DNA of 64,000 nucleotides from an uncultured Bacteroidia bacterium. GTDB lineage: Bacteria; Bacteroidota; Bacteroidia; Bacteroidales; F082. A model generated the notes under the pieces. It saw nothing but the letters and a program-made list of their open reading frames with translations. It did not search any database and was not told the origin of the DNA. Shown here in pieces: positions 12,120 to 64,000 of this stretch. The stretch lies in NCBI GenBank assembly GCA_902774365.1, contig CACYHX010000009.1, positions 1 through 64,000 of the forward strand. Direction: 5' to 3'. The position numbers were made by a program, and so were the translations under genes. Every line of letters starts with the position of its first letter. Positions within the stretch are counted from its first letter, which is position 1.

Positions 12120-12143
12120 TAGGTTCTCTTTAGGAATAAGACT

Positions 12144-13454: not shown

Positions 13455-13474
13455 GACAAAAAAACAATAAAAAC

Positions 13475-13506
13475 GAGGGCGGCCTTAGGGTCGCCCTCAA
13501 TTTTTT
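13475..13506 (+). terminator. Rho-independent terminator
   Basis: A GC-rich hairpin (GAGGGCGgCC / GGgtCGCCCTC) followed by a T-run at 13501-13506. It is 20 bp after the Ser-rich protein's stop codon. Confidence 0.85.
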
Positions 13507-13508
13507 AC

Positions 13509-13516
13509 TACCTTTG
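13509..13516 (+). promoter_or_regulatory. -7 promoter box for upp
   Basis: TACCTTTG, a perfect TAnnTTTG, lies 18 nt before the GTG start at 13535. It directly abuts the T-run of the preceding terminator, so terminator and promoter are packed end to end. It argues against the TTG at 13514, which falls inside the box. Confidence 0.65.
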
Positions 13517-13534
13517 CGACAAAACTTTCAAGCC

Positions 13535-14197: not shown

Positions 14198-14199
14198 TA

Positions 14200-14229
14200 G
14201 GTAGAGACGCGGCGCGCCACGTCTCTACA
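14200..14229. repeat. TGTAGAGACG palindrome, copy 5
   Basis: GTAGAGACG and CGTCTCTAC arms around CGGCGCGCCA; the outermost left T is a G here. It occupies almost all of the 34-bp gap between the convergent upp and elbB genes, where it could end transcription from both sides. Confidence 0.88.
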
Positions 14230-14231
14230 AA

Positions 14232-46115: not shown

Positions 46116-46370
46116 ATGGAACACAGCTGCAACATCCACATCGGACAACTTATCCGTGAGCAACTCAGAGCCGACCAGCGCAGCGCAAGTTGGCTGGCAC
46201 GGGAGATTGGCTGCTCACGCAACCATCTTTACAAGGTGTTCCGCAAGCCTTCATTGGATGGCGATCTGCTGCTCTGCATCTCCTTGGCCATGAATTTCAA
46301 CTTCTTCCAATACTATACGGCAGCTTTTTACGAAGGAATGAAGGAGAGGCTGGGGGAGACAAAACAATGA
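46116..46370 (+). CDS. Small HTH DNA-binding protein, paralogue A
   Basis: 84 residues. The central part (SASWLAREIGCSRNHLYKVF, ~23-42) is a clear helix-turn-helix: recognition helix SRNHLYKVFRKP, followed by a cro/Xre-like LLLCISLAMNFNFFQ helix. A near-identical protein is encoded at 48714, and DNA identity between the two is high over ~170 bp. Preceded by the 264-nt structured leader. Its stop codon touches the stop of the convergent kinase gene. Probable transcription regulator; targets unknown. Confidence 0.8.
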   Translation: MEHSCNIHIGQLIREQLRADQRSASWLAREIGCSRNHLYKVFRKPSLDGDLLLCISLAMNFNFFQYYTAAFYEGMKERLGETKQ

Positions 46371-48713: not shown

Positions 48714-48965
48714 ATGAAAAAGCCATCGAGCGACATCCACATCGGCCTCCTTATTCAAACTCAACTAAAGGCCGACCAACGCAGCGCAAGTTGGCTGGCA
48801 CGCGAGATTGGCTGCTCGCGCAACCATCTTTATAAGGTGTTCCGCAAGCCTTCGTTGGATGGCGAACTGCTGCTTTGCATCTCTTTGGCCATGAATTTCA
48901 ACTTTTTCCAATATTATACTGCGGCTTTTCTTGAAAACATGAAGGCACGGATGGGAGAAGAATAA
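48714..48965 (+). CDS. Small HTH DNA-binding protein, paralogue B
   Basis: 83 residues, the near-duplicate of paralogue A: the core SASWLAREIGCSRNHLYKVF and LLLCISLAMNFNFFQYYTAA are unchanged, while both termini differ (MKKPSSDIHIGLL start, NMKARMGEE end). A perfect -7 box (TACTTTTG, 48683-48690) gives a short leader, unlike the long structured leader of A. Divergent from the HTH-kinase pair, convergent with hydF. Confidence 0.82.
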   Translation: MKKPSSDIHIGLLIQTQLKADQRSASWLAREIGCSRNHLYKVFRKPSLDGELLLCISLAMNFNFFQYYTAAFLENMKARMGEE

Positions 48966-48970
48966 AAGCC

Positions 48971-50161
48971 TTATTTACGGAATGGTTCCATCACCCGCTC
49001 AAAAATCCCATTCATATAAGCCAACGCCATGCCGTAGTTGCTAATCGGGATGCCCTGGTTGACAAACAGGTTGGTGCGGTTGAGCAGTTGCTTGCGTGTG
49101 CTCATACAGCCACCGCATTGGATGGCCATGGCGTATTTTTCGGGATGCTCGATGGGCGACAGGCCCGCCACATATTCAAAATGAATGTCTTTCCCTGTGT
49201 ATTTCAGGATCATGCGGGGCAGCTTCACGCGGCCGATGTCCACACAGGTGCTATGATGGGTGCACGACTCTAGCAGCAATACCGTGTCGCCGTCTTTCAG
49301 TTGTGAGAGATGCGGCGTCCCTTTCACGTAGTTGTCGAAGTCGCCACGCAAACGCGCCATGACGATGCTGAAGCTGGTCAAAGGAATGTCGGCAGGGACA
49401 ATTTTACTTACAAAACCAAACACTTGGCTGTCGGTGACAATCAAAGCGGGCTTGGGCATGGTGTCGAGATATTGCTGCAAGTGCGTCTCTTTCAGCACCA
49501 CACAGATGCATTCGTTGTCGAGCACATCGCGGATGGCCATCACTTGCGGCAGAATCAACCGGCCTTCGGGGGCTTCCGAGTCGACCGGGCATACCAAAAC
49601 CACCACCTCGTTCGGCTGAATGATGCCACCCAACAGCGACACCTTTTGATAGGCGCTCTCAGGAATGGCTTTTTTCAAGGCTTCGACCAACGGAGCGATG
49701 TCGTCATTTCTTGACACGCTGAAATCCAACACGGTAGCGCCCGTTTGCTGCTCCATCACCGCCTTCACGACGGCAAGCAGCGGCTCTTCGTCGGCCTTGT
49801 TGTGGACGATGAAAAACGGCACCGCCAATTCTTTCATTCGGGCAATCAGCTGCTTCTCAGGCTCGGCGAAGTTGTTTCCCGTGACGACGAGGATGGCGCA
49901 ATCAATTTCTTCCAGCACCTTCATCGTCTTCTCCACTCGCTGCTGTCCCAACGCGCCCACATCATCGGTGCCGGCCGTATCGATGAGCACACAAGGCCCA
50001 ATGCCGAAAATCTCCATGCTTTTCTTGACCGGGTCGGTGGTGGTACCCGCCGTGTCGCTCACGATGGCGATGTTTTGTCCCGTCAATAGGTTGATGAGGC
50101 TGCTTTTGCCGCAATTTCTGCGACCGAAAATGCCGATATGAGGCTTCAAATCCTTTGCCAT
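48971..50161 (-). CDS. hydF: [FeFe]-hydrogenase H-cluster maturation GTPase
   Basis: 396 residues. N-terminal GTPase domain: GRRNCGKSSLINLLTG (P-loop, ~12-27), SDTAGTTTDPV (switch I), DTAGTDDVG (G3), NKAD (G4). The C-terminal cluster-binding domain has CTHHSTCVDIGRVKLP and AIQCGGCM, the HydF His/Cys ligand pattern. HydF is the scaffold and carrier that delivers the 2Fe subcluster to [FeFe] hydrogenase, so the organism should make or use H2 anaerobically. HydE, HydG and the hydrogenase are not in the window. Confidence 0.95.
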   Translation of the reverse strand: MAKDLKPHIGIFGRRNCGKSSLINLLTGQNIAIVSDTAGTTTDPVKKSMEIFGIGPCVLIDTAGTDDVGALGQQRVEKTMKVLEEIDCAILVVTGNNFAEPEKQLIARMKELAVPFFIVHNKADEEPLLAVVKAVMEQQTGATVLDFSVSRNDDIAPLVEALKKAIPESAYQKVSLLGGIIQPNEVVVLVCPVDSEAPEGRLILPQVMAIRDVLDNECICVVLKETHLQQYLDTMPKPALIVTDSQVFGFVSKIVPADIPLTSFSIVMARLRGDFDNYVKGTPHLSQLKDGDTVLLLESCTHHSTCVDIGRVKLPRMILKYTGKDIHFEYVAGLSPIEHPEKYAMAIQCGGCMSTRKQLLNRTNLFVNQGIPISNYGMALAYMNGIFERVMEPFRK

Positions 50162-50243
50162 TTACCTTTGTTTTTCAATTTTGACGCAAAAATAATAAAA
50201 AGTAGTCGAAAAATAGGAAAAACTTAATATATTGATTATAAAT

Positions 50244-50308
50244 AATATATCCGACAGCAAACGACAACAAACGACTACAGTCGACTACAAACGTTTAATC
50301 AACGGCTT
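50244..50308 (+). repeat. 65-bp promoter-upstream repeat, copy 1 (ssb)
   Basis: Identical over 65 bp to 61926-61990. Its core (50252-50291) is four contiguous 10-bp units, each opening with CGAC and three of them ending in AAA. It ends 4 bp before the TTGAC at 50313. Probable binding array for a regulator acting on the ssb promoter. Confidence 0.9.
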
Positions 50309-50312
50309 AGTC

Positions 50313-50333
50313 TTGACAAGTGTTGTTACTTTG
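50313..50333 (+). promoter_or_regulatory. Promoter of the tandem ssb genes
   Basis: TTGAC (50313-50317) and a TTACTTTG -7 box (50326-50333), with TTG to TTTG spacing of 17 nt. The spacing is identical at the second copy (61995/62012). The leader to the ssb ATG is ~105 nt. Confidence 0.65.
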
Positions 50334-50443
50334 CATCGTCAAACCGATTGATAGGGCATAGTTCGACAAGCTCACTAACCAACTTGCCAAGAGGGCGACA
50401 CGACAAATCAAACTTATACATTAATTACTAAACACACACAACC

Positions 50444-50794
50444 ATGAGTACAATGAGAAATTCGGTCATGCTGATTGGCCGCCCGGGTGCAGAACCTGAA
50501 ACGAGAACCTTCAACGACAACCGCGTCGTCACGCGCTTCAACCTCGCCGTGAACGAGACGCGTCGCAACGCCAACCACGAACAGGTGAAAGACACGCAGT
50601 GGTTCACCGTGGTGGCATGGGACAAGACGGCAGAGCGCGTCGCACTGGCCGTGAAGAAAGGCAAGCGTATCGCCATCGACGGCGCCTTGCGCAACAACGA
50701 ATGGACCGACAAGAACGGCCAACGCCACACGTCGACCGAGATCCACCTGAACAACTTCATCCTCCTCGATTGGGGCAAAGAGCAAAACAACTAA
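50444..50794 (+). CDS. ssb: Single-stranded DNA-binding protein, tandem copy 1
   Basis: 116 residues: one OB-fold (SVMLIGRPGAEPETRTF, TRFNLAVNETRR, TQWFTVVAWDKTAERVALAV, KKGKRIAIDGALRNNEW) with the family-typical order and no acidic C-terminal tail, ending DWGKEQNN. Most housekeeping SSBs have such a tail for partner binding, so this may be a specialised or secondary SSB. First of a tandem pair driven by the 65-bp-element promoter. Confidence 0.9.
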   Translation: MSTMRNSVMLIGRPGAEPETRTFNDNRVVTRFNLAVNETRRNANHEQVKDTQWFTVVAWDKTAERVALAVKKGKRIAIDGALRNNEWTDKNGQRHTSTEIHLNNFILLDWGKEQNN

Positions 50795-50828
50795 TCAACC
50801 TATTAATAACACTTAAACACACAAAACT

Positions 50829-51167
50829 ATGAGTACAATGAGAAATTCGGTCATACTGATTGGCCGCCCGGGTGCAAAACCTGAAATCAAGACCTTCAAC
50901 AACAACAAGAAAGCCCGTTTCAGCCTTGCCGTAACGGAAAACAAGAAGAACGCCAACGGAGAATGGGTCAACGACACCCAGTGGTTCCCCATCATCGCCT
51001 GGGGTGCTGTCGCCGACCGCGTCGAGAAGAACGTGAAGAAAGGCAAGCGGATTGCCATCGACGGCAGCCTCAAAAACAACGAATGGACCGACGACAAAGG
51101 ACAGCGCCATTCCGTCACCGAGGTCTGGGTGAACGACTTGTTCCTGATTGATTTTGAAAAGGAATGA
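50829..51167 (+). CDS. ssb: Single-stranded DNA-binding protein, tandem copy 2
   Basis: 112 residues. The first 15 codons are almost identical to copy 1 (STMRNSVILIGRPGAKPE), then the proteins diverge (ARFSLAVTENKKNANGEWVN, WFPIIAWGAVADRVEKNV, RIAIDGSLKNNEW). Also lacks an acidic tail (ends LIDFEKE). The 34-bp gap to copy 1 has no promoter, so co-transcribed. The pair is evidently a tandem duplication. Confidence 0.9.
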   Translation: MSTMRNSVILIGRPGAKPEIKTFNNNKKARFSLAVTENKKNANGEWVNDTQWFPIIAWGAVADRVEKNVKKGKRIAIDGSLKNNEWTDDKGQRHSVTEVWVNDLFLIDFEKE

Positions 51168-51185
51168 TTCTTTTCAATGAATGCG

Positions 51186-51216
51186 AAAAAGGGGCGACCG
51201 ACGGTCGCCCCTTTTT
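51186..51216. terminator. Bidirectional terminator after ssb pair
   Basis: An A-run, a GGGGCGACCGxxGGTCGCCCC-type stem (51191-51211) and a T-run. It serves the ssb pair and the convergent zinc-ribbon gene. Confidence 0.9.
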
Positions 51217-51218
51217 GT

Positions 51219-51959
51219 TTATCCAGTCACCATGAAAACGCGTGGGTCTTTCCACTTGGAATGGCGTAGCATCTCATTGGTGAAGTGCGTGCGGCTGCCC
51301 ACCTGATCCAGCAGCTCCTTTGCCTTATCGAACTGACGCAGCTCACGATAGATCTCGGGCAACTCAAGGTCGATTTGTTCCTCAGGATGTTTCTCGAGCA
51401 AAGCCAACAGGCGTTGTAGGTTGTCGGTGAAGTCCTTGTGGTTTTTGAGGAACAGCTTCTCCCCTTCCAAAATCATCTTTCTGTTGCAATGCCACACGCC
51501 GAAGCTCATGAAGCCGTTGAGCAGATACTTCAACCTCACATGCTGGTGGTTGCGGTGCAGGTCGTTGTAGGCCCACCACAAGAAACGACGCAGATAGATT
51601 TCCTTCTTCGGCTCGTAGTGGCTCTTCTTCAGGAAGGTCTTGTAATGGTTGACCAAAGCCATCTTCCCCTTGTTGTCGGAGAAACTGATGCCAAAGAAAC
51701 GCCAGGTGTTCCACGAATAGACGTCTGCATCAGGTTTTTCGTAGGTGATAAACGGCTCAACAGGATTCTCCACCCAGAAAATATGGCCGCACGATGGGCA
51801 CATAATCATCTTCTGTGGTGTGGTGATGAGGTTGTCGTTCAGCACCTTGCCGTCCGAATACAAGATAGCCTCGTTGACCAGCTCGGCCTTCAGGTTGCGA
51901 CCTTCGAGCCAGGCTTGGCAATGCGGACATTGGAAATAAAACGAGTCGTATTTCAGCAT
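51219..51959 (-). CDS. CpXC-like zinc-ribbon protein with helical-repeat C-terminus
   Basis: 246 residues. Two CxxC pairs (CPHCQAWLEG ~11-14 and CPSCGHIFW ~54-57) form a zinc ribbon of CpXC type. Residues ~95-246 are helical and look like a short TPR-type array (FLWWAYNDLHRNHQHVRLKY, LPEIYRELRQFDKAKELLDQ). No signal peptide, so cytoplasmic. A -7 box (TACTTTTG, minus strand, near 51985) lies 24 nt upstream. Specific role unknown. Confidence 0.75.
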   Translation of the reverse strand: MLKYDSFYFQCPHCQAWLEGRNLKAELVNEAILYSDGKVLNDNLITTPQKMIMCPSCGHIFWVENPVEPFITYEKPDADVYSWNTWRFFGISFSDNKGKMALVNHYKTFLKKSHYEPKKEIYLRRFLWWAYNDLHRNHQHVRLKYLLNGFMSFGVWHCNRKMILEGEKLFLKNHKDFTDNLQRLLALLEKHPEEQIDLELPEIYRELRQFDKAKELLDQVGSRTHFTNEMLRHSKWKDPRVFMVTG

Positions 51960-52019
51960 TTTGTTCTTGTATTACGGGCCTCAAAAGTAGAAAAAAAACT
52001 TCATTCCGTGAAAACGGAA

Positions 52020-52664
52020 TTATTTTCTGCCAAAATCTGCGGGAATTTCACCCCATATTTCCGTCTTCCACTTCAAAACCGGCACCTCGATGGCATTTTC
52101 GTTGAGCCATTTCTCAGCACGGGCGATGAGCTCAAAGAGGTATTCGTTTTTGGCGTTAGGCTGCAGCTTGGTCTTGCATTTCTTCTGCCTGACCCAAAGC
52201 TGCGCGTTGACCGAGTCGCTATAGATGGGATATTGAACCTTTTTCTGCTTCATCCATGCCAAGGCATGCACGATGGCAAGAAACTCACCGATGTTGTTCG
52301 TGCCGTTCTCAAAGACAGGACTCTTGAACAGCTGCACCGTCGTGGCTGGCTGTGTGCCGAAATCCACGAACAGACCTTGATACTCCATCTTGCCAGGGTT
52401 GCCCGAGCAGGCGGCATCCACGGCGACGGCAGGGCTGACAGGCTGTTCCTTTGCCTTCAGGAGGTCGACAACGGGCGCACTTACTTCCTTGCCCCAATAG
52501 TTATCAGGGCCTTCCTTGAAAGCGATTTCGGCGCTTGTACGGTCAGGGAAGCCCTTGTATTTGGCACCTTTCACACCTTCGATTTCCTTCTTGCAATCCT
52601 CCCAGCGGTCGTAAATGCCAGGATGGCTACCTTGCCAGACAACGTAAAACTTGTTTTTTGACAT
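52020..52664 (-). CDS. rnhA: Ribonuclease HI with N-terminal viroplasmin (hybrid-binding) domain
   Basis: 214 residues from the ATG at 52664 (the frame opens at 52709). The N-terminal ~45 residues (KFYVVWQGSHPGIYDRWEDC, FPDRTSAEIAF) are the caulimovirus-VI/viroplasmin RNA-DNA hybrid-binding domain. The RNase H fold shows VDAACSGNPGKMEYQG (first Asp, ~75), NNIGEFLAIVHAL (Glu), IYSDSVNAQLWV (second Asp) and RAEKWLNEN. Removes RNA from RNA-DNA hybrids. A perfect -7 box (TACTTTTG, minus, 52670-52677) is only 5 nt from the ATG, so the mRNA is predicted leaderless. Confidence 0.92.
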   Translation of the reverse strand: MSKNKFYVVWQGSHPGIYDRWEDCKKEIEGVKGAKYKGFPDRTSAEIAFKEGPDNYWGKEVSAPVVDLLKAKEQPVSPAVAVDAACSGNPGKMEYQGLFVDFGTQPATTVQLFKSPVFENGTNNIGEFLAIVHALAWMKQKKVQYPIYSDSVNAQLWVRQKKCKTKLQPNAKNEYLFELIARAEKWLNENAIEVPVLKWKTEIWGEIPADFGRK

Positions 52665-52727
52665 GGGCGCAAAAGTAAATATTTTTGTTTTTACCACAAT
52701 GCCATACAACTAGAAATGAAAAAAAAG

Positions 52728-52735
52728 TATTTTTG
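52728..52735 (+). promoter_or_regulatory. -7 promoter box for the M14 peptidase gene
   Basis: TATTTTTG, 40 nt before the ATG at 52776. Confidence 0.6.
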
Positions 52736-52775
52736 CAGCCTTAAAAACCAAATAGTGTTTGCAAAAACCTAAACA

Positions 52776-55700
52776 ATGAAAGCTTTACGTTACTTCTCAC
52801 TCCTACTCTTTGCCGTTCTATTCGGCAACATCCAGGCACAGAGCCAGCAATCTTTGGCCGACCTCATGCAACAGAGAGGCGAGTATTATTTTAACCTCAA
52901 CGTGCAAGAACCTTCCGAAATCCAGACCATCAACGCCATCTGTTCCGTCGATGCCACCGACGGCAGCACCGTCGTCTGCTATGCCAACCCTACGCAATAC
53001 GATAACCTGTTGGCTGCTGGCTATCAGCCTCAACTGATGACGCCGCCGTCACTGCGCAATGAAGCCAAGATGTACGACCCGCAACGCGGCATGTACGACT
53101 GGGACAGCTATCTGACCTACACGCAATATGTCAGCATGATGGAAGGCTTCCCCGCAACGGCAGTCAGCGGCAGGACCTGCACCCTGCTTGACTTGGGCAC
53201 GCTTTCGACCAGCAACCACCGCAAGATTTTAGGCGTTCGCATCAATAACGGGCAACCCGATGGCAAGCCGAGGTTCCTTTACACCTCTACCATGCACGGC
53301 GATGAGGTGACGGGCATGATACTGATGCTCCGCCTCATCGAAGAGTTGTGTACCAGCACCGATGCGCGCATCGTCGATCTCATCAACAGCCTCGACATCT
53401 TCATCTTCCCCTGCACCAACCCTGATGGCACCTACTACGGCGGCAACAACACCGTCACCGGTGCCCGACGTGCCAACGGCAACAACATCGACCTTAACCG
53501 TCACTTCCCCGACTTCGACGACGGGCCGCATCCCGACGGAGCATCTTACTATCAAGATGAAGCCCAGTGGATGATGGACCTTGCCCAGCAATATCTGTTT
53601 ACCATGGGTGCCAACTACCACGGCGGTGCCGAAGTGGTCAACTATCCTTGGGACACCTACCAGCCCGTGCATCCCGACGATGCCTGGTGGCGCCTCGTCA
53701 GCACGGAATACGTCACCAACGCCCGTGCGGTTCATTCCTCATATATGACCGACACCTACAGCAGCGGCATCACTAATGGATATGCCTGGTACACCATCAA
53801 CGGCAGTCGTCAGGACTATATGAACTACTACGGCCAATGCCGCGAGCTCACCTTGGAATGTTCCTCTTCGAAGACCCCCAGTGCCTCGCAGCTGCCCAAC
53901 TTCTGGAACTATAACCACAACAGCATGCTGTCCTTTATGGAGCAATCCTTGAACGGCGTCCACGGCGTGGTGAAAGATGCCAACACCCAGCAACCCATCG
54001 AAGGCGTCACCGTCACGGTGCAAAACCACGACGCCCTAGGCTCATGGGTGACCTCACATAACGTCGGCGACTTCCACCGTCCCATCAAAGGCGGCAGCTA
54101 TTCCTTCAAGTTCACCAAAGCAGGCTACTGCTCCGAGACCGTCAACGTGACGGTGGCAGACAACGCGCGCGTCGACCTCGAAGTGTTCCTTAGCCCCTCC
54201 GGCAGCTGTCCCGTTGATTGTTACGTGAGTGCGATGCCTTCCGAAGACGGAAACTACGTGATGGGCTATTGCGATGGTAGCACCCTCACCATGCCCACCA
54301 ACAACAACGGATCGGCTTCCACCGCCACAGTGAGCATCACACCCAACGAAGATGAGGGTTTTTCCGTGGAAGAGGGTGAAATAGAGAACCAGTTCGTCCT
54401 GACTTCGACTGGCACATCCGGGCAATACTACATCTCCTATAATGGCTACTACCTCACAAGAAGCAATAGCGGTTGGGGAGGCGGCAACAAGGCCATCACA
54501 TGGAGCGCCAACCAAAGCAGCAACAACCGCTGGACCATCAGCGAAAGCGGCATAAGCCAAACTGCGTCGAGCAGTTGGGGAGGTAGCACCACTTATTATC
54601 TGTTCTTTAACGGAGGCTCTTTCTACACAGGTACCAGCAATAACAACAACATCACCTTCTACCAAGAAGGCGACTGCCCAACGGGAGACAGCTATACCAT
54701 CGTTGTTTCGGCCAACCCAAATGAAGGCGGTACCGTCACCGGCGGCGGCACCTTTGACGAGGGGACTTCATGCACCGTCACCGCAACGGCCAACAACAAC
54801 TACGCTTTCGAAAACTGGACCGAGAACGGCAGTGTGGTCTCCACCACTGCCAGCTATACCTTCACCGTGAACGCTAACCGCAACCTCATCGCCAATTTCT
54901 CCGAGACGTTGTTGCCCACCTTCACCGTTACCGTGGTAGCCAATCCAGCGGAAGGCGGCACCGTCACCGGAGGCGGCACCTACCAGGAAGGAGAGAGCTG
55001 CACTGTCTCGGCCTCGACCAACAGCGGTTACACCTTCAACAACTGGACCGAGAACGGCGTCGTGGTATCGTCGAATCCTAGCTACACCTTCAATGTGAAC
55101 AATAACCACAACCTTGTGGCTAACTTCACCTTCATCCCTCTGCCCATCTACAACGTCAGCGTGTCGGCCAACCCAACAGAAGGCGGCACTGTCACTGGCG
55201 GCGGCACCTATGAAGAAGGGCAGTCGTGTACCATCACGGCCACGGCCAACAACGGATACACCTTCAACAACTGGACCGAAAATGGCACCTTGGTATCCAC
55301 CAATGCCAGCTATTCCTTCACCGTGAATGGTAACCACAATCTCGTGGCCAACTTCACTTTCATCCCCCTGCCCATCTACAACGTCAGCGTGTCGGCCAAC
55401 CCGAACGAAGGTGGAACTATCACTGGCGGTGGCTCCTATGAAGAAGGACAGCCTTGCACCGTCACGGCCATGGCTAACAACGGCTACACGTTCAACAGCT
55501 GGACCGAAAACGGCGTTGTGGTTTCCTCTAACGCCAGCTACACATTTATTGTGAATGGCAACCACAACCTTATCGCCAACTTCAGCATCAACACCTACAC
55601 CATCAGCGTCTCGGCCAACCCCACTTTTGGTGGCATGGTCACTGGTGGTGGCACCTTCACCTATGGTGAGAGTTGCACCATCACGGCCACAGTCAGCGAC

Positions 55701-56510
55701 GGCTTCTCCTTCATCAACTGGACCGAAGAGGGGAGCTTCGTCTCGTCAAATGCCTCATACACCTTCACCGTGACCGACCATCGTAATTTCGTCGCCCACT
55801 TCACCGAAAACCCATTGCCTTTCTACACCATCACCCTGTCGGCCAAGCCAGATAACGGCGGTACCGTTATTGGCGGCGGCTCTTATCAAGAAGGGCAGTC
55901 GTGCACGGTGAAAGCCTATCCAGCCACGGGCTTCATGTTTGAAAAATGGACGGAAAACGAAGTACAGGTCTCCACCGAAGCGAACTATACCTTCACCGTA
56001 GCTGGCAACCGTGACCTCGTGGCACACTTCAGTGCCTTGACTTTTGCCATCAATGCCACGCTGGAACCTGCCGAAGGCGGAACCATCGTCGGAGCCGGCA
56101 CCTACGAATACGGCTCACAGGCCTCACTGAATGTCGTACCTAACGAAAACTATGTTTTCCAGAATTGGACCGAAAACGGCATCGTCATTTCTGAGGAACC
56201 CACCTACTCCTTCATCGTGACGGGTGTCCGCAACCTCGTCGCCCACCTCACCTTCATCGACGGCATCGGAGAACAACACGCTGTTGCAATCAGCCTCTAC
56301 CCCAACCCCGTCAACGACAAGCTGACCATCAAGGCCACCGAAGCCATCGAACACCTCGAAGTGTTCAGCATCACCGGCGCCAAGGTGTTAGGAATGACGA
56401 GCCATAACGAAACGCTGGAAATCAACACGTCCAACCTGCCCGCCGGCATCTATGTCATCCGCATGACGACGCAGAGCGCCACCGAGGTCAGAAGATTTGT
56501 AAAGAAATAA
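52776..56510 (+). CDS. T9SS-exported M14 zinc carboxypeptidase with InlB repeats
   Basis: 1244 residues. Signal peptide (MKALRYFSLLLFAVLFGNIQAQ). M14 peptidase domain ~110-390: STMHGDEVTG (HxxE zinc ligands ~174/177), NPDGTYYGGN, ANGNNIDLNRHFPD, ANYHGGAEVVNYPWD (third His) and CRELTLECSSSKTP (catalytic Glu). CarboxypepD_reg-like domain ~395-475. A unique Asn/Ser/Gly-rich domain ~478-640. About seven InlB-type repeats ~645-1160, and a T9SS type A sorting domain (YPNPVNDKLTIKATE, AGIYVIRMTT, RRFVKK). Probably a surface-anchored peptidase acting on peptides outside the cell. Confidence 0.93.
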   Translation: MKALRYFSLLLFAVLFGNIQAQSQQSLADLMQQRGEYYFNLNVQEPSEIQTINAICSVDATDGSTVVCYANPTQYDNLLAAGYQPQLMTPPSLRNEAKMYDPQRGMYDWDSYLTYTQYVSMMEGFPATAVSGRTCTLLDLGTLSTSNHRKILGVRINNGQPDGKPRFLYTSTMHGDEVTGMILMLRLIEELCTSTDARIVDLINSLDIFIFPCTNPDGTYYGGNNTVTGARRANGNNIDLNRHFPDFDDGPHPDGASYYQDEAQWMMDLAQQYLFTMGANYHGGAEVVNYPWDTYQPVHPDDAWWRLVSTEYVTNARAVHSSYMTDTYSSGITNGYAWYTINGSRQDYMNYYGQCRELTLECSSSKTPSASQLPNFWNYNHNSMLSFMEQSLNGVHGVVKDANTQQPIEGVTVTVQNHDALGSWVTSHNVGDFHRPIKGGSYSFKFTKAGYCSETVNVTVADNARVDLEVFLSPSGSCPVDCYVSAMPSEDGNYVMGYCDGSTLTMPTNNNGSASTATVSITPNEDEGFSVEEGEIENQFVLTSTGTSGQYYISYNGYYLTRSNSGWGGGNKAITWSANQSSNNRWTISESGISQTASSSWGGSTTYYLFFNGGSFYTGTSNNNNITFYQEGDCPTGDSYTIVVSANPNEGGTVTGGGTFDEGTSCTVTATANNNYAFENWTENGSVVSTTASYTFTVNANRNLIANFSETLLPTFTVTVVANPAEGGTVTGGGTYQEGESCTVSASTNSGYTFNNWTENGVVVSSNPSYTFNVNNNHNLVANFTFIPLPIYNVSVSANPTEGGTVTGGGTYEEGQSCTITATANNGYTFNNWTENGTLVSTNASYSFTVNGNHNLVANFTFIPLPIYNVSVSANPNEGGTITGGGSYEEGQPCTVTAMANNGYTFNSWTENGVVVSSNASYTFIVNGNHNLIANFSINTYTISVSANPTFGGMVTGGGTFTYGESCTITATVSDGFSFINWTEEGSFVSSNASYTFTVTDHRNFVAHFTENPLPFYTITLSAKPDNGGTVIGGGSYQEGQSCTVKAYPATGFMFEKWTENEVQVSTEANYTFTVAGNRDLVAHFSALTFAINATLEPAEGGTIVGAGTYEYGSQASLNVVPNENYVFQNWTENGIVISEEPTYSFIVTGVRNLVAHLTFIDGIGEQHAVAISLYPNPVNDKLTIKATEAIEHLEVFSITGAKVLGMTSHNETLEINTSNLPAGIYVIRMTTQSATEVRRFVKK

Positions 56511-56533
56511 CACGTTATACAAAAACAACAAAA

Positions 56534-56584
56534 ACCGACCGTCTATAGATTCCCAAGGGAATGACATAGACGGTCGGTTTTTTT
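56534..56584 (+). terminator. Terminator containing a GATTCCC/GGGAATGACAT core
   Basis: Perfect 13-nt arms ACCGACCGTCTAT and ATAGACGGTCGGT plus a T-run (56578-56584). The loop itself holds AGATTCCC and GGGAATGACAT, the core of the CATGTCAT repeat family, so a repeat may have been recruited as terminator. Confidence 0.88.
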
Positions 56585-56606
56585 GAATCGAGCCTATTTG
56601 ATTGGA

Positions 56607-57701
56607 TTAAAATCCCAAAGAAATACTCAATCCTTTTGCCGTATTCACCAGGTCGCTGTCGATGGTGACAAGATTGGGCTTGGAGATAGCTTCCTTGAGT
56701 GAGACGGCCACCAAGTCGGGATGATGGTAGGCCACCATCTGACCAAATTGGCCATTAAGCACCATCTCGAAGGCCTTCACGCCAAACTCGGCAGACAGAA
56801 CGCGGTCGTAGGCAATCGGCACGCCACCACGCTGCAGGTGACCCAAAGTGGTCTCGCGCATGTCGTGGGTGAAGCCCGCCGCCTTCATCTCCTCGATGAA
56901 ACGGCGACCGATGCCGCCCAGTTTCTTGTTCTCGTAGCCGACCTCAGTGCTGATTTCATACACCTGCTGGCCATCTTTCGGGCGTGCGCCTTCGGAGGCC
57001 ACCACCACGGCGAAGCCACGGTCGTGGTTGAAACGGCTTTCCAGACGTTCTTTCACGATGTTGATGTCGTAAGGGAACTCCGGTAGCAGGCACACTTCTG
57101 CACCACCTGCGATAGCAGAATGCAAGGCAATCCATCCGGCATCGCGACCCATGACTTCAAGGACGAAGACGCGGTTATGCGAGGCGGCCGTGGTAACGAG
57201 CTTGTCGACGGCCTCAGTCGCAATCTGCACGGCGGTCTGGAAGCCGAAGGTACATTCTGTAGAGGAGAGGTCGTTGTCGATGGTCTTGGGCACACCGATG
57301 ATGTTCAGGCCCTTCTCGTAGAGCTTCTGCGAGATGCGCTGCGAGCCATCGCCGCCGATGCTGATGACGGCGTCGATGCCCATGTATTGCAACTTGCGGA
57401 GCATCTCGTCGCTGCGGTCCACGGTAGTCCAGGTGCCGTCGGCGTTCTTGACGGGCCAGTTGAACGGGCCACCCTTGTTGGTGGTCTCGATGATGGTGCC
57501 GCCACGGAAGTGTATGCCGCGCACCGACTCTGGCGTCAGCCTGACGACCTCGGTGGGTTCCCAAAGGATGCCGTTGTAGGCTTGTATGCTACCGAGCACT
57601 TCCCAATCTTTCTCTTGGGCGGCTCTCTTGACGATGGCGCGAATCACGGCGTTCAAGCCTGGGCAGTCGCCACCGCCGGTTAAAACTAGCAATCGTTTCA
57701 T
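56607..57701 (-). CDS. pfkA: 6-phosphofructokinase, G/K-type active site
   Basis: 364 residues from the ATG at 57701 (the frame opens at 57725). TGGGDCPGLNAVIRAIV (P-loop region), SIGGDGSQRIS (Gly at the position that is Asp in PPi enzymes), and PKTIDNDLSSTECTFGF (Lys where E. coli PfkA has Gly). EVMGRDAGWIAL and HLQRGGVPIAYDR also match. The GGDG plus PKTIDND combination is characteristic of group III/mixed-substrate PFKs, so the phosphate donor (ATP or PPi) is uncertain. Phosphorylates fructose 6-phosphate in glycolysis. 36 bp downstream of a lipoprotein gene on the same strand. Confidence 0.93.
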   Translation of the reverse strand: MKRLLVLTGGGDCPGLNAVIRAIVKRAAQEKDWEVLGSIQAYNGILWEPTEVVRLTPESVRGIHFRGGTIIETTNKGGPFNWPVKNADGTWTTVDRSDEMLRKLQYMGIDAVISIGGDGSQRISQKLYEKGLNIIGVPKTIDNDLSSTECTFGFQTAVQIATEAVDKLVTTAASHNRVFVLEVMGRDAGWIALHSAIAGGAEVCLLPEFPYDINIVKERLESRFNHDRGFAVVVASEGARPKDGQQVYEISTEVGYENKKLGGIGRRFIEEMKAAGFTHDMRETTLGHLQRGGVPIAYDRVLSAEFGVKAFEMVLNGQFGQMVAYHHPDLVAVSLKEAISKPNLVTIDSDLVNTAKGLSISLGF

Positions 57702-57737
57702 AGCCAATAGATTATTACTATTCAAAAACCGATTCCA

Positions 57738-58193
57738 TCATTTCCAAATGCTATGGATGCGCTTGGCCAGCTTATTAATGGCTCTGTTCACATCCTTTTG
57801 GCGCGTGAGTGCAAAACGGTTGGAGGAGCGGCACGAAGCCACGGTCTTGCCCGACATGTAATCCTCGAAGCTGATGCTGAGGGTGGATTTCGCTTCGTCA
57901 GAGGTGGCGGCGTACTTCACGAGGACGAGTTGTTCCTTTTGTTCCTCGGTGATGTCGTTAAGGCGATGATCGCCGATCATCTTTAGGCGCGTGGCTTCGA
58001 GGGCGTCATAGATGCCTGGCTCGATTTCGATGTCAGTTTCGGTGCCGTGGATCGTTTGGCCTTTAACAATGGAGGCGTACCCATATTTATTGAGGTCCAC
58101 GCCTTTGGCAATCATGGTTTTGTCCGTGTTGCAGGAGCTTAAAACGAGTGCTCCTAAGAGGACGATTAAATACTCTTTTAGGTTGATTTTCAT
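57738..58193 (-). CDS. Small lipoprotein, unknown function
   Basis: 151 residues. Lipoprotein signal MKINLKEYLIVLLGALVLSSC (lipobox LSSC, Cys21). The mature part (YASIVKGQTIHGTETDIEIE, YDALEATRLKMIGDHRLND, LSISFEDYMSGKTVASCRSS, ending RIHSIWK) resembles the general plan of small Bacteroidetes envelope lipoproteins that assemble like DUF4136/CsgG relatives, but I cannot assign a family. Between aspS and pfkA on the same strand, with a TGTAGAGACG palindrome upstream. Confidence 0.78.
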   Translation of the reverse strand: MKINLKEYLIVLLGALVLSSCNTDKTMIAKGVDLNKYGYASIVKGQTIHGTETDIEIEPGIYDALEATRLKMIGDHRLNDITEEQKEQLVLVKYAATSDEAKSTLSISFEDYMSGKTVASCRSSNRFALTRQKDVNRAINKLAKRIHSIWK

Positions 58194-58217
58194 GGGTTTG
58201 TTGTTTTTATTGATTTC

Positions 58218-58247
58218 TGTAGAGACGCGATTAATCGCGTCTCTACA
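58218..58247. repeat. TGTAGAGACG palindrome, copy 7
   Basis: A 30-bp perfect palindrome (centre CGATTAATCG) in the 67-bp gap between aspS and the lipoprotein gene on the same strand. No strong T-run follows on the minus strand. Confidence 0.92.
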
Positions 58248-58260
58248 ATCGATTACATTT

Positions 58261-60015
58261 TCATTTCAAATTCAAAGCAATCTGCAACTCATCCAATTGC
58301 TCTTGGGCAATCGGGGCGGGGCTGCCGCTCATCACGTCGCGGCCGGCGTTGTTCTTCGGGAAGGCGATGAAGTCGCGGATGCTGTCGGCGCCACCGAAGA
58401 GCGAGCAGAGACGATCGAAGCCGAAGGCCAGACCAGCGTGAGGCGGTGCTCCATACTCGAAGGCACCCATCAGGAAGCCGAACTGCTCTTGAGCCTTCTC
58501 GTCGGTGAAGCCCAAGGTGTGGAACATCTTGTTCTGCAAGGTGCGGTCGTGGATACGGATGGAGCCGCCACCCACCTCCACACCGTTCATCACGATGTCG
58601 TAGGCGTTGGCGCGGATGTCGCCCCACTTCGTCGGGTCGTCAAGCAGAGCTTCGTCCTCAGGCTTGGGAGCGGTGAAAGGATGGTGCATGGCGTAGTAAC
58701 GTTGCGTCTCCTCGTCCCATTCCAAAAGCGGGAAGTCGATGACCCACAGCGGCGCATATTCATCAGGCTTGCGCAGACCGAGTTGGTTACCCATCTCCAG
58801 ACGCAGGGCGTTCAACTGCACGCGGGTCTTCATGGCCTCGCCACAGAGGATGAGCATCAAGTCGCCGGGCTTGGCACCGAACTTGTCGGCGATGACTTTC
58901 AGGTCTTCGGGCGTGTAGAACTTATCGACGGACGACTTGAATGTGCCATCGGTGTTGTATTTGATGTAGACCATGCCACCGGCACCCACCTGCGGACGCT
59001 TCACGAACTCGGTGAGTTGGTCGAGTTGTTTGCGGGTATATTCCGAGCAGCCCTCGGCGCAGATGCCAACAACTAAATCAGCGTTGTCGAAGAGGCCGAA
59101 GCCCTTGCCTTTCACCACGTCGTTCAGTTCCACGAACTTCATCCCGAAGCGGATGTCGGGCTTGTCGGAGCCATAGTATTTCATGGCGTCGTGCCAGGTC
59201 ATGCGCGGGAACTGGCCAAATTCGAGGCCTTTCATCTCCTTGAAGAGGTGCTTGGCCAAGCCTTCGAAGGTGTTCAGCACATCCTCTTGCTCCACAAACG
59301 ACATCTCGCAGTCGATTTGCGTGAACTCGGGCTGACGGTCAGCACGGAGGTCTTCGTCGCGGAAACAACGCACGATTTGGAAATAGCGGTCCATGCCAGC
59401 CACCATCAGCAGCTGCTTGTATTGCTGCGGACTTTGCGGCAAGGCGTAGAACTCACCAGGGTTCATACGGCTCGGCACCACGAAGTCGCGGGCGCCCTCA
59501 GGCGTGCTCTTGATAAGCATCGGGGTTTCGATTTCGAGGAAGTTGAGGTTGCTCAGGTAGTTGCGCACCAACATCGCCATGCGGTGACGCAGTTCGAGGT
59601 TCTGGCGCACGGGGTTGCGACGGATATCCAAGTAACGGTATTTCATGCGGAGGTCATCGCCGCCATCGCTGACGTCTTCGATGGTGAAAGGCGGGGTCTT
59701 GCTGCTGTTGAGCAGTTTGAACTCACTGACTTTCAGCTCAATTTCTCCCGTCGGCATATTCGGGTTCTTCGATTCGCGCTCGATGACAGTGCCTTTGGCC
59801 TGAATCACGAATTCACGCCCGAAGGTACGGGCCTGTTCGATGAGTTTCGGGTCGCTGCTGCCATCCAAAAAGAGTTGGGTAATGCCATAACGGTCGCGGA
59901 GATCAATCCAAACGAGAGAGCCTTTGTCGCGGGTGCGCTGCACCCAGCCGGCCAATGTCACTTCCTTGCCGGCGTCGGCAAGACGAAGTTCGCCACAGGT
60001 ATGTGTTCTGTACAT
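58261..60015 (-). CDS. aspS: Aspartyl-tRNA synthetase
   Basis: 584 residues, normal for the bacterial type. N-terminal anticodon-binding OB domain ([40 protein letters not shown]). Class II core: [17 protein letters not shown], motif 2 [18 protein letters not shown] (~219-236), the GAD insertion domain (~310-410), and motif 3 [13 protein letters not shown] (~535-547). Charges tRNA-Asp (and possibly tRNA-Asn; discriminating versus non-discriminating type not decided here). Upstream lies a 43-bp AT-rich GATTTAAA repeat tract. Confidence 0.97.
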
Positions 60016-60022
60016 ATTTCGA

Positions 60023-60065
60023 GATTTAAAGATTCAAAGATTTAAAATTTAAAGATTTAAAGATT
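60023..60065. repeat. AT-rich GATTTAAA short tandem repeats
   Basis: About five imperfect copies of GATTTAAA/GATTCAAA in 43 bp, filling the gap between the C69 dipeptidase stop and the aspS start. Likely an intrinsically curved or easily melted tract upstream of aspS; it may be unstable in copy number. Confidence 0.8.
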
Positions 60066-60073
60066 CCTCCTAA

Positions 60074-61816
60074 TCAATAAGCTTTGTATTTGTCGCCCGT
60101 CTTTTCAATGAGGATACGATAGTATTCGTCGCTGTATTTCGGGTGCTTACTGTTGATAGGCACATATTTCTGACCTTCAACAGGTTCTCCAGGCGTGTTG
60201 AGGTTGCCGTCGACATACTTCATGAACAGCTCGTGATAGAGTTTTTGCCATGACTTGACGAGTTTAGTGGCGGCATTGTTGGAGAACTGCGTGAGTTCCC
60301 TGATTTGGGCCTCTCTGCCCTTGATGGTGTTGACGTATTCGTCCAAAGCGGGGACTTCCTTCTCCACCCAGTTGGTTTCAAAATCACGCTGATGTTGACG
60401 GATCTCAGGGTGGATGTAGTCGTACTTGGTATAAGCCCAGTTGCTCATCTGATTGAAGGTCCAGAAGGCGGAGGTCTCCGACCACTCGCTCATCGAGCCG
60501 TTGCCTTCGCGGAAGCACTCGGGAATCTCGGTCATGCAGCTGTACATGGGGCAGTAGACGGTGTTGTCGGTGTCGTCGACGCCAAACCAAATGATGCCGC
60601 CGATGGGCCAATCCCATTTGCCACGGCTCTGGGCGACGAAGCTGAAGCCCGTCTGCTGGGTAGCAGTGGTGCGCTCATGGATGTAATGAACGCCGTCGAC
60701 TTCCCAGTCCATGGGACGCCAGCGGTAAGGGCAGTGGAACGGGCCAGCACCTACATCTTGCGACATGTCGAGGTCGGTGCCTTCGAGGTGGTCACGCATG
60801 AAGTCCATCATGTCGAGCACGCTGACTTTCTTGTTGGGCAGCACCCACAAAGGCATGCGGTTGGTCGGGAAATTATCGGGAGTCTGGCACATATTGGCGG
60901 TGTAAGGCTTGGCGCGCTTGATGTCGCGACCCGTGGCATAGCCCCAATAGTCTTTCATGTTGTCGGTCACCTTGTTGAACATAGCCCACACGCGCAGGTC
61001 GCAGAAGCGGGCGCCGTCGAAGGTGACGGGGTTGTAGACATCGGAGAACGAGAACTTCTCATCGGGACCGTTATAAAGCTTCATGTCCTTGGCAAACTTG
61101 ATGACGTCATCGGCATAGACGCAGTCAATCTTAGGGTCTTTCAGGAGCTTGTCGATGTTCTTGAAGGTGATGCTGGTCTTGCATTTTCTAGTAGCCAGCG
61201 GGAAGGTGGTGATGCGGGCCTGGTTGGCGTGACCGCTCACATAGCCGTCGGGAATGCGGCGGGCCACCCACACGGCGCCTTTGTTAGCCTTGCCCTTGCC
61301 AATCATCTCGAGGATCCACACCTCTTCGGTGTCGCAGATGCTGAACGACTCGCCCTCGCTGACGTAGCCATAGTTGGCGACCAGTTCACCCATGCACTTG
61401 ATGGCTTCGCGGGCGGTCTTGGCGCGCTGCAGGGTGATGTAAATCAGGCTGCCGTAGTCGATGATGCCCTGGCCTTCCCAGAGACATTCGAGGCCGCCGT
61501 AGGTCGTCTCGCCGATAGCCAACTGGTATTCGTTCATGTTGCCGACCACGTTATAGGTATGTGCCACTTCGGGGATTTGGCCGCGATACATGCCACCGTC
61601 CCAGTCGTAAACATCGCGCATGGTGCCTGCCGGCCAGTCGGCGGCGGGATAATGATAAAGTTCGCCATAGAGCACATGGCTGTCGGCAGCATAGCTAATC
61701 ATGCAGGAGCCATCCGTAGAAGCGCCTTTGGTAATCAAGAAGTTAGTGCAGGCATTGGCCTTCCCGAAGGAAAAAACGAGGACCAAAGCCAGGATTGCAG
61801 TGAATACTTTTTTCAT
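60074..61816 (-). CDS. C69-family dipeptidase
   Basis: 580 residues. Signal peptide MKKVFTAILALVLVFSFGKANA, cleaved so that the mature protein starts with Cys (CTNFLITKGASTDGS). The N-terminal Cys is the nucleophile of the Ntn-hydrolase fold typical of family C69/PepD. GTMRDVYDWDGGMYRG, EYQLAIGETTYGGLECLW, DTEEVWILEMIGKGKANKGA and ARRIPDGYVSGHANQARIT are family blocks. Cleaves dipeptides, here probably in the periplasm. The 506-aa open frame on the other strand is a shadow. Confidence 0.93.
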   Translation of the reverse strand: MKKVFTAILALVLVFSFGKANACTNFLITKGASTDGSCMISYAADSHVLYGELYHYPAADWPAGTMRDVYDWDGGMYRGQIPEVAHTYNVVGNMNEYQLAIGETTYGGLECLWEGQGIIDYGSLIYITLQRAKTAREAIKCMGELVANYGYVSEGESFSICDTEEVWILEMIGKGKANKGAVWVARRIPDGYVSGHANQARITTFPLATRKCKTSITFKNIDKLLKDPKIDCVYADDVIKFAKDMKLYNGPDEKFSFSDVYNPVTFDGARFCDLRVWAMFNKVTDNMKDYWGYATGRDIKRAKPYTANMCQTPDNFPTNRMPLWVLPNKKVSVLDMMDFMRDHLEGTDLDMSQDVGAGPFHCPYRWRPMDWEVDGVHYIHERTTATQQTGFSFVAQSRGKWDWPIGGIIWFGVDDTDNTVYCPMYSCMTEIPECFREGNGSMSEWSETSAFWTFNQMSNWAYTKYDYIHPEIRQHQRDFETNWVEKEVPALDEYVNTIKGREAQIRELTQFSNNAATKLVKSWQKLYHELFMKYVDGNLNTPGEPVEGQKYVPINSKHPKYSDEYYRILIEKTGDKYKAY

Positions 61817-61925
61817 TGGATATAGTTTTAATGATGATACTTCTATTAGAGCCTACAAAGATAGTAAATTGTTGAATTGATTATTGTTTAATTGTTTAAT
61901 TGTTTACATTTTGTTGAAATTCAAC

Positions 61926-61990
61926 AATATATCCGACAGCAAACGACAACAAACGACTACAGTCGACTACAAACGTTTAATCAACGGCTT
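61926..61990 (+). repeat. 65-bp promoter-upstream repeat, copy 2
   Basis: Identical to 50244-50308, including the four 10-bp CGAC units (61934-61973). It lies directly upstream of the TTGAC box at 61995. Confidence 0.9.
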
Positions 61991-61994
61991 TATC

Positions 61995-62015
61995 TTGACG
62001 TGGATTGCATCTTTG
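61995..62015 (+). promoter_or_regulatory. Promoter of the unknown gene at 62044
   Basis: TTGAC (61995-61999) and a CATCTTTG -7 box (62008-62015), same 17-nt spacing as in the ssb promoter. It overlaps the open-frame start at 62005, which favours the ATG at 62044. Confidence 0.6.
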
Positions 62016-62043
62016 CAGCGGAAAACATTATAAACCTACTATC

Positions 62044-62514
62044 ATGGAAACACCTGAATACATTGAAGGCATCCCGACAGAAAAGAAAAGAGTAAAAGAG
62101 CGTTTCGAACTCATCAAGTCGTATTATGAGAATCTTTGGAAAGACTTGCAACGAGAAACTGGCAGCAATTACATCCATAACAAATTCCTTAACGCTGATG
62201 TGTATATTGTAAAAAATGAAAGCGACAAAAAAACTGCTCGTGAGGCTTTACACAATTGGAAATCCACCTATGCTGTAAAGCATTTAAAGGAAGTCGTTGA
62301 AAACGCGAGTTCTATCGAAGGTCTACCCCTGTTTTCTTCTATCAAAGCCGGTGCCCAAAGGAAAAACGGTTACAAGAATATGATCCTTTTGTACTATCAA
62401 TTTGAGAATGAACAATTCGACTACATGAATTTCACCGCTAAACTAACCATTGGAGTAACTGCGTCACAAAAACATATTCAATATAGCGTCAATAAAGTCG
62501 AGGTGACAAAATAA
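62044..62514 (+). CDS. Unknown protein under the same upstream element as ssb
   Basis: 156 residues from the ATG at 62044; the ATG at 62005 lies in the predicted promoter. No signal peptide. N-terminal ~50 residues are helical and charged (EKKRVKERFELIKSYYENLW). The C-terminal part (LPLFSSIKAGAQRKNGYKNM, then FTAKLTIGVTASQKHIQYSV) ends in beta strands and faintly recalls small nuclease- or MuF-type C-terminal domains of phage and conjugative-element proteins; I cannot confirm this. AT-richer than neighbours. Sharing a regulatory element with ssb hints at DNA metabolism or mobile-DNA defence. Confidence 0.72.
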   Translation: METPEYIEGIPTEKKRVKERFELIKSYYENLWKDLQRETGSNYIHNKFLNADVYIVKNESDKKTAREALHNWKSTYAVKHLKEVVENASSIEGLPLFSSIKAGAQRKNGYKNMILLYYQFENEQFDYMNFTAKLTIGVTASQKHIQYSVNKVEVTK

Positions 62515-62515
62515 A

Positions 62516-62578
62516 AATCTGACCAAGTTTCACAGTACCTCGCTTTCGTTTGGACCGTCCATGGTCAGATTGGTTTTT
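62516..62578 (+). terminator. Terminator of the 62044 gene
   Basis: Arms AATCTGACCA (62516-62525) and TGGTCAGATT (62562-62571) followed by a T-run. The 36-nt loop is long for an intrinsic terminator. Confidence 0.6.
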
Positions 62579-62673
62579 CACCGCACTCTACATTACCTCT
62601 CGTCTAAACAATTGGGATGTGTACGGTTTCTGCCTGCAAAAATACAACAAAAACTAAAACCCCACCACAAAAA

Positions 62674-64000
62674 ATGAAAAATATTCCTTACTTTAGCCAA
62701 TTGAATACGATTGAAAGCATGGCGCAGCAAACCTTTGTCAACCAGAAACTTGAATTCGTCGAGGAGTTGGTACTTTACACCGACGCACATATCTTCCTCA
62801 CGGGAAAGGCGGGCACGGGAAAGACCACTTTCTTGAAGAACCTGCCGCTCAAGACCTACAAGCGCATGGTCGTGGTGGCTCCCACGGGCGTGGCAGCTAT
62901 CAATGCGGGCGGGCAGACGATCCACTCGTTTTTCCAGCTGCCTTTCGGGCCGCAACTGCCTGAAAATGCATCAGGTAGAGGCTACAATGCAAAAACGTTG
63001 GCCGCGCAATACCAAAAACTCAACAAGAAGAAAATCAACTTGATACGCAGCCTCGACCTACTCATCATCGACGAAATCAGCATGGTGCGCGCCGATGTCT
63101 TGGATGCCATCGATGCCGTGTTGCGTCGCGTGCGCCGCTCGCAGAAACCCTTTGGCGGGCTGCAACTGCTGATGATTGGCGACGTGCACCAGCTGGCGCC
63201 CGTGGCCAAGGCCGAGGAATGGGAGGTGTTGTCGCCGTATTACGACACGCCCTACTTTTTCGGCAGCCAAGTGCTGAAAAAGACCCCCTACGTCTGCGTG
63301 GAGCTGGAACACATCTACCGTCAACACGACGAAGACTTTATCACCTTGTTAAACAAAGTGCGCAACAACCAGATGGATGCCGATTGCGTGCGCCTGCTCA
63401 ACAGCCGCTTCAAGTCCAACTTCATCGCCCACGACAACGAAGGCTACATCACCCTGACGACGCATAACTACCAAGCCGACCAAATCAACGAGACGAAGTT
63501 GGCAGCTATCGAAGCAAAGCCTTTGGTTTTCAAGGCCGTGGTACGCGGTACTTTCCCCGAAAACACCTACCCCACCAAGGAAGAACTGGTGCTGAAAGTC
63601 GGAGCGCAGGTGATGTTCGTCAAAAACGACCCCAACCCTGAAAAGGCTTTCTATAACGGCAAAATCGGAAGGCTGGTCGGCTACAACGACGACGAAGGCA
63701 CCGTCACCGTCGAAAGCGAGGGCGAGCACATCGTCGTGCCCAAGCTGACTTGGCAAAACATGGAATACGCCATCAACGCCGAGAACCAAGACATCGAGGA
63801 AAAGGAAATCGGCAGCTTCACCCAGATACCGCTCCGTTTGGCCTGGGCCGTCACCATCCACAAGAGCCAAGGACTCACTTTCGACAAGGTCATCGTCGAC
63901 GCGGGACAGGCCTTCGCCCACGGACAGGTGTATGTGGCTCTCAGCCGCTGCACCTCGCTCGAAGGCCTCGTGCTGAAGACGCCCATCGCCTCCCATGCCT
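62674..64000 (+). CDS. PIF1/RecD-like superfamily 1 helicase, 3'-truncated by window end
   Basis: An open frame from the ATG at 62674 to the window edge without a stop (~442 residues); an ATG at 62719 (AQQTFVNQ) is an alternative start. Helicase motifs: IFLTGKAGTGKTTFLKNLPL (Walker A, ~45-65), VVAPTGVAAINAGGQTIHSF (motif Ia), LLIIDEISMVRADVLDAID (Walker B), LQLLMIGDVHQLAPV (motif III), LEHIYRQ (motif IV), and WAVTIHKSQGLTFDKVIVD with VYVALSRCTSLEGLVL (motifs V-VI). Probably a 5'-3' DNA helicase; Bacteroidetes relatives often continue into an HRDC or helix-rich C-terminus, which would lie beyond this window. Confidence 0.9.
   Translation, partial: MKNIPYFSQLNTIESMAQQTFVNQKLEFVEELVLYTDAHIFLTGKAGTGKTTFLKNLPLKTYKRMVVVAPTGVAAINAGGQTIHSFFQLPFGPQLPENASGRGYNAKTLAAQYQKLNKKKINLIRSLDLLIIDEISMVRADVLDAIDAVLRRVRRSQKPFGGLQLLMIGDVHQLAPVAKAEEWEVLSPYYDTPYFFGSQVLKKTPYVCVELEHIYRQHDEDFITLLNKVRNNQMDADCVRLLNSRFKSNFIAHDNEGYITLTTHNYQADQINETKLAAIEAKPLVFKAVVRGTFPENTYPTKEELVLKVGAQVMFVKNDPNPEKAFYNGKIGRLVGYNDDEGTVTVESEGEHIVVPKLTWQNMEYAINAENQDIEEKEIGSFTQIPLRLAWAVTIHKSQGLTFDKVIVDAGQAFAHGQVYVALSRCTSLEGLVLKTPIASHA

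Follow-up and report, generated by a model that had tools for sequence, protein, structure and literature searches.

Two copies of a 65-bp element lie in the DNA studied here, a stretch of 64,000 nucleotides from an uncultured Bacteroidia bacterium of the Bacteroidales family F082 (assembly GCA_902774365.1, contig CACYHX010000009.1, positions 1 to 64000; hereafter the window). We consider the element a probable activator operator, whose oldest and most widespread target is the gene for a short single-stranded DNA-binding protein (SSB), whose use would have been extended to further genes in a rumen clade, and whose role most likely lies in the handling of single-stranded DNA. Position, phasing, promoter linkage and gene content were observed directly, and the functional part of this interpretation rests on the gene content.

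A phased array upstream of two promoters

The two copies, at 50244 to 50308 and 61926 to 61990 on the forward strand, are identical over 65 bp, and the bases directly flanking them differ on either side. Copy 1 carries a comb of CG steps from 50252 to 50304, made up of CGAC units at 50252, 50262, 50272 and 50282 followed by CG at 50292 and 50303; measured from the TTTG box, these steps fall at −78, −68, −58, −48, −38 and −27. In copy 2 the CGAC units start at 61934, 61944, 61954 and 61964, with further CG steps at 61974 and 61985. Each copy leads into a forward-strand promoter. That of copy 1 (50313 to 50333) has TTGAC (−33) at 50313 to 50317 and TTTG (−7) at 50330 to 50333, and that of copy 2 (61995 to 62015) has TTGAC at 61995 to 61999 and TTTG at 62012 to 62015, with a spacing of 17 nt, start to start, in both. 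These coordinates agree exactly with an earlier note on this DNA, which had described the 65-bp identity, the 10-bp phasing of the CGAC units and the 17-nt promoter spacing. When the window was scanned with a 24-nt degenerate pattern of the array, allowing up to three mismatches, the only matches lay inside the two copies, against an expectation of 0 from 100 shuffles.

Copy 1 stands upstream of a pair of ssb genes on the same strand. They encode proteins of 116 aa (50444 to 50794; PF00436, E = 1.9e-28) and 112 aa (50829 to 51167; PF00436, E = 3.2e-26), neither of which has an acidic tail when its C terminus is compared with that of the tailed SSB of the same genome.

Copies and downstream genes in the rumen clade

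The earlier note had suggested that further copies be sought in the whole genome and in its relatives, and a family of copies emerged in both. The genome from which the window comes (83% complete; the source genome hereafter) holds 11 matches at E ≤ 5e-5, spread over eight contigs; a 63-bp stretch is identical in five of these matches, and three extra matches at E 0.3 to 2 are at chance level; four near-complete relatives hold 8 to 16 matches each. TTGAC and TTTG occur at the usual offsets in 10 of the 11 source-genome matches. The eleventh (L011, at G000:C37:22934) is a 25-nt promoterless fragment fused to a gene of the same family as the 156-aa protein behind copy 2, and is a decayed unit of the source genome's small array. 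Behind the ten promoter-linked copies we found the ssb pair, yifB/comM, two genes of the 156-aa family (one shortened), two PBECR3-type genes (recA being next in line after one of them), two genes of the ORF6N cluster, a short PBECR1-type open reading frame and one gene cut by a contig end.

A family-wide BLAST search returned matches in 44 of 173 genomes, all from the genus of the source genome, and deeper searches together with a pattern scan of public genome contigs brought the collection to at least 182 distinct copies. The named records that carry them are Bacteroidales or Bacteroidia metagenome-assembled genomes, many from rumen samples, bacterium F082 among these. The 182 listed copies were selected by their promoter-side core, which places fragments lacking it, such as the one described above, outside the count; some genomes entered the set by two routes and were merged only where contexts were identical. 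The earlier note had taken copies inside genes or away from promoters as the mark of a mobile repeat. Among these core-selected copies, TTTG stands at a constant offset in 180 of 182 and TTGA at its usual offset in 156; in the source genome, at least one fragment is promoterless. The number of units varies by 10-bp steps, with four units in 132 copies, three in 41, five in 1, two in 1 and a single unit in 7.

We took the gene behind each listed copy to be the longest open frame near the element and named families from representatives. The genes fall into the 156-aa family (42 copies), ORF6N/RhuM (31), short ssb (20), yifB (19), PBECR3 (19), PBECR1 (14), LPD3 (10), recA (7), small open reading frames (6), Pif1-like helicases (3) and singletons (5), with no open reading frame behind the remaining 6. 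Several of the small genes match PBECR1, PBECR3 or LPD3 above the cut-off. They correspond in this to the PBECR and LPD3 domains of polyvalent proteins, as far as the available part of that description goes (PMC5512222), and differ from them in standing alone as genes, in some cases within arrays, with a separate element for each.

The genes for RecA and the Pif1-like helicase lie directly behind the element in some genomes and behind a small phage-type gene in others. The window has the second arrangement, in which copy 2 is followed on the forward strand by the gene for the 156-aa protein (62044 to 62514) and then by the Pif1-like helicase gene (62674 to 64000, continuing past the window end). 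Relatives of this helicase are the first gene behind the element in three other copies, starting at 58, 59 and 299 nt, and one of them (in L157) matches PF05970 at E = 1.5e-28. The 156-aa protein, which the earlier note had called uncharacterised, can now be described in part: it is predicted to adopt a divergent LPD3-like, BECR-type fold, although the window protein has no match to LPD3 (PF18798) in Pfam up to E = 1 and a profile-profile comparison of its family with the LPD3 set gave a probability of only 7%, too weak to count. The structure searches leave room for folds and families beyond those listed.

Tandem arrays of small genes, with one element per gene, occur in some genomes and reach seven units in genome G117. 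One array member is a RhuM protein, with matches to the candidate defence families PDC-S05/S23, and a gene read as DndD-like adjoins one array. Between the small genes of the G117 array (L072, positions 6700 to 14700) we also noticed long repeats of 75 to 170 nt, about 60 to 90% identical, which could drive the exchange of units by recombination.

Short ssb as the probable target in distant families

A BLAST query of the yifB type, taken from a promoter other than that of ssb, gave weak matches in five other Bacteroidales families, and four of the five lay before a short ssb. A sequence-only profile, built from 11 copies (seven of the genus and four ssb promoters of other families), matched 136 of 393 genomes of the order at E ≤ 0.05; at E ≤ 1e-4 it matched 58 genomes of 26 other Bacteroidales families by our count from the list. 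In a draw across the phylum, 63 of 395 genomes matched at E ≤ 1e-3, namely the source genome and 62 genomes from other orders of the same class. Downstream genes were read for 97 distant copies; the order search supplied 69 of these and the phylum draw 28 (genes for 28 of the 62 other genomes; loci for 29, with L353 left out), and 4 of the 97 lie at contig ends.

An SSB gene starts within 250 nt behind the element in 84 of the remaining 93 distant copies; in 3 it comes later, after an LPD3 gene or apparent four-helix-bundle genes, and in 6 it is absent. Of these six, one precedes a PBECR1-like gene (below the cut-off), one an ORF6N gene and two a tyrosine recombinase gene, and two are diverged copies in a region read as phage (L247). 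In another family, too, the element is followed by LPD3 and ORF6N genes, which shows that its association with phage-type genes extends beyond the rumen clade. Tyrosine recombinase genes directly behind element copies were seen in three genomes outside family F082 (L409, L410 and L412, the last outside the 93-copy count); the proteins score best against XerA and integron-integrase models, and L412 alone passes the curated cut-off. The recombinase copies L313 and L348 belong to the four for which anchoring on the TTTG box failed.

The SSBs linked to the element are mostly 107 to 121 aa long and lack an acidic tail, with exceptions such as those of G289 and L357, which end in PF. A longer SSB ending in DLPF was encoded alongside the short ones in 9 of 11 genomes searched; the longer SSB of G044 does not end in DLPF, and the search of G289 showed two short SSBs only. 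Twenty-six loci that carry tailed ssb, yifB or ORF6N genes, drawn from element-lacking and other genomes, were also searched with the profile, which gave one weak match (11.5 bits).

The comb persists in the distant copies. In the 93 that were anchored on TTTG, CG is found at −27 in 96%, at −48 in 92%, at −58/−59 in 80%, at −68/−69 in 88% and at −78/−79 in 65%, and information drops upstream of −80. At least four of the five comb positions are occupied in 74 of the 93, compared to none with the comb shifted by 3 to 5 bases, a difference that is descriptive rather than a test because the comb was part of the profile used to select these copies. TTGAC at −17 from TTTG, in contrast, was present in 2 of the 93. 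The TTGAC to which the earlier note had drawn attention is a feature of the rumen clade; what holds more generally is that the −7 box lies at a fixed distance. The overall reading of that note is supported to the extent that we find an operator with several sites, linked to a promoter and common to a small regulon that includes ssb.

Proposed mode of action, competing explanations and context

An array joined to a −7 box without a −33 box has the look of an activator-dependent promoter. We propose that several activator subunits would occupy the 10-bp-phased CG units along a single helix face, immediately before a Bacteroidota-type promoter, and that RNA polymerase would thereby be brought to the −7 TTTG box. 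The reason for preferring an activator to a repressor is that copies outside the rumen clade keep the array and its distance to the −7 box while the −33 box is missing. The short, mostly tail-less SSB paralogue would then be the oldest and widest target, and in one rumen Bacteroidales clade the operator would have come to stand also before recA, yifB/comM, the Pif1-like helicase gene, ORF6N/RhuM genes and arrays of phage-type small genes. Operators of the OmpR/PhoB type are tandem direct repeats next to the −35 box. The present array resembles them in its head-to-tail units of about one helix turn (10 to 11 bp), placed just upstream of a weak or missing −35 box, and differs in its unit number, three or four in most cases, and in the conserved block resembling TTAATAACCGA that accompanies the units in the distant copies; no regulator of this type was linked to the element, although no search of this kind was made.

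Tail-less SSBs induced during competence are known from Bacillus, and late-competence regulons place SsbB, RecA and ComM under ComK, ComX or CRP-S. The rumen clade, and only that clade, likewise has a short SSB paralogue, RecA and a ComM-type YifB under one operator, whereas the type of operator differs, no uptake gene was seen, and ssb is nearly the sole target elsewhere. For Riemerella, the accessible part of a published study (PMC8459023) describes RecA as essential for transformation and reports that yifB insertions lower it. ComEC was encoded in 13 of 13 genomes checked. On this gene content, the regulon would most likely serve, as in natural transformation, to process single-stranded DNA that is incoming or damaged.

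Several observations weigh against this interpretation. Neither dprA, comEC nor any other uptake gene was found among the cluster representatives, read by eye, behind the 182 listed copies (the genome-level search covered comEC, not dprA, and the source genome is incomplete), so that the likeness to competence is a reading and not a result. No regulator emerged from the searches made. At the thresholds used, 257 of the 393 order genomes and 332 of the 395 phylum-draw genomes had no match to the profile, as 129 of the 173 same-family genomes had none by BLAST, and in two of the BLAST-negative family genomes a short ssb is preceded by the 3′ half of the element only, weakly matched (14.0 and 11.1 bits), with no CGAC array. 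The genes recA and yifB were seen behind the element in the rumen clade only, and the comb statistic carries the selection bias described above. Finally, copies are no more alike within genomes than between them (similarity 0.928 versus 0.931; 88 copies, permutation P = 0.79, with some small open reading frames labelled recA by inference from a shared leader), and coevolution with a regulator is therefore not supported. Concerted evolution within genomes, which a variant common to ssb, yifB and recA in some genomes had suggested by eye, was rejected on the same overall test. As a separate observation, the short-ssb promoter of one element-lacking congener (L395, genome G106) has TTAGTCGT-N7-ACGACTAA where the array would be, possibly a changed operator.

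The best lead to a regulator, and a lead only, is a treble-clef zinc-finger protein of about 120 aa. By our count it is encoded near the element in 31 of the 97 distant loci, from 17 families; in 30 of the 97 its gene stands head-to-head with the element, within 150 nt in 26 of these, and at one locus a recombinase gene rather than ssb lies on the other side. However, all 25 genomes tested, whether they carry the element or not, have one clear match to this protein (and three of them a second, at E 0.006 to 0.007), and in the congeners read its gene is mostly behind rsmE or away from the element. No solved relative was found below E 0.3, and old synteny with ssb would explain the adjacency equally well. 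ORF6N proteins were also considered as autoregulated regulators and were rejected: element-lacking congeners have ORF6N genes too (20 of 20), and in each of the near-complete genomes G109 and G067 none of the 8 clear element-linked genes is ORF6N. A bolder proposal, possible but on the doubtful side, is that the zinc protein works a Bacteroidota-own regulon for processing single-stranded DNA, apart from LexA, which would be the main inducible recombination programme of Bacteroidales. The rumen version would in that case have expanded to take in recA, comM and arrays of RNase-like genes of phage type, the latter being used against, or acquired from, incoming DNA.

A mobile promoter, or a dispersed repeat resembling a miniature inverted-repeat transposable element, could spread between genes without any dedicated regulator. 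Near-identical copies before unrelated genes, the tandem units of which seven stand in one array, the promoterless fragment in the source genome, the two diverged copies in the phage-like region and the equal similarity within and between genomes would all fit such a repeat. We nevertheless consider it unlikely, given the single distance to TTTG in 180 of the 182 core-bearing copies, the restriction of downstream genes to a few families, and the short ssb that follows a diverged copy at 84 of 93 distant loci, from many families and several orders; nor was there a match in viral contigs (exact pattern) or in phages and plasmids (blastn).

We judge an SOS-type operator, at which a LexA-like protein would repress ssb, recA and other genes until DNA damage, to be improbable as well. 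A published survey, in the part available, reports that both known groups of Bacteroidetes SOS regulators are absent from Bacteroidales and gives their operators as the palindromes GGA-N5-TCC and CTAA-N5-TTAG (PMC8565304). Another system could fill that gap, and recA and ssb, which are also targets of the noncanonical LexA regulons in that survey, are classic SOS genes. The present motif, however, is a tandem array, and inspection of the 65-mer found neither palindrome. Moreover, a repressor acting by steric hindrance would not typically bind where the array is, upstream of the promoter, and no umuDC, dinB, imuB or uvr gene, and no error-prone polymerase gene, was seen among the cluster representatives behind the 182 listed copies, which were read by eye with no family scan.

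Conjugation leading-region promoters have repeats near genes for SSB and XerC/D-type integrases. STAXI elements, in the part of their description available (PMC2864571), also lie near SSB, integrase and antirestriction genes, and SSB and tyrosine recombinase genes follow the present element too, yet an element of such a kind, folding when DNA enters as a single strand, is very unlikely here: both strands of both copies fold little better than shuffles (z −1.06 to −1.72), the consensus structure of 11 sequences reaches −0.81 kcal/mol with no compensatory change, Rfam gave no match at gathering thresholds in window positions 50000 to 62600, and the element comes with a normal promoter box.

The window has other repeated features. 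A hairpin-like repeat, GTAGAGACG...CGTCTCTAC (repeat family D14), occurs in seven copies, at positions that include 1827 to 1915, 7480 to 7564, 14192 to 14235, 30945 to 30988 and 58210 to 58253. A 1244-aa protein encoded at 52776 to 56510 contains repeats of roughly 75 aa (ANPxxGGTVTGGGxY...NWTENG), to which repeats near the window start, at 106 to 1356 and 6122 to 7015, correspond. A small open reading frame of helix-turn-helix-like appearance is present in two copies (46129 to 46357 and 48730 to 48958; 229 nt, 84% identical).

Tandem operators and small DNA-processing regulons are already known; what is new is this operator and its range over several orders, and in open-licence PMC text we recognised no description of such an element before ssb in Bacteroidota. 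One type of operator before a short SSB across several orders points to a regulator, and in the rumen clade competence-type genes are joined with arrays of phage-type small proteins in one putative regulon. Bacteroidales are dominant gut bacteria in which the published survey, in its available part, reports no SOS regulator (PMC8565304). For the control of their recombination genes, the element offers a concrete handle, since it supplies a sequence to use as bait, a promoter for reporter constructs and a candidate gene.

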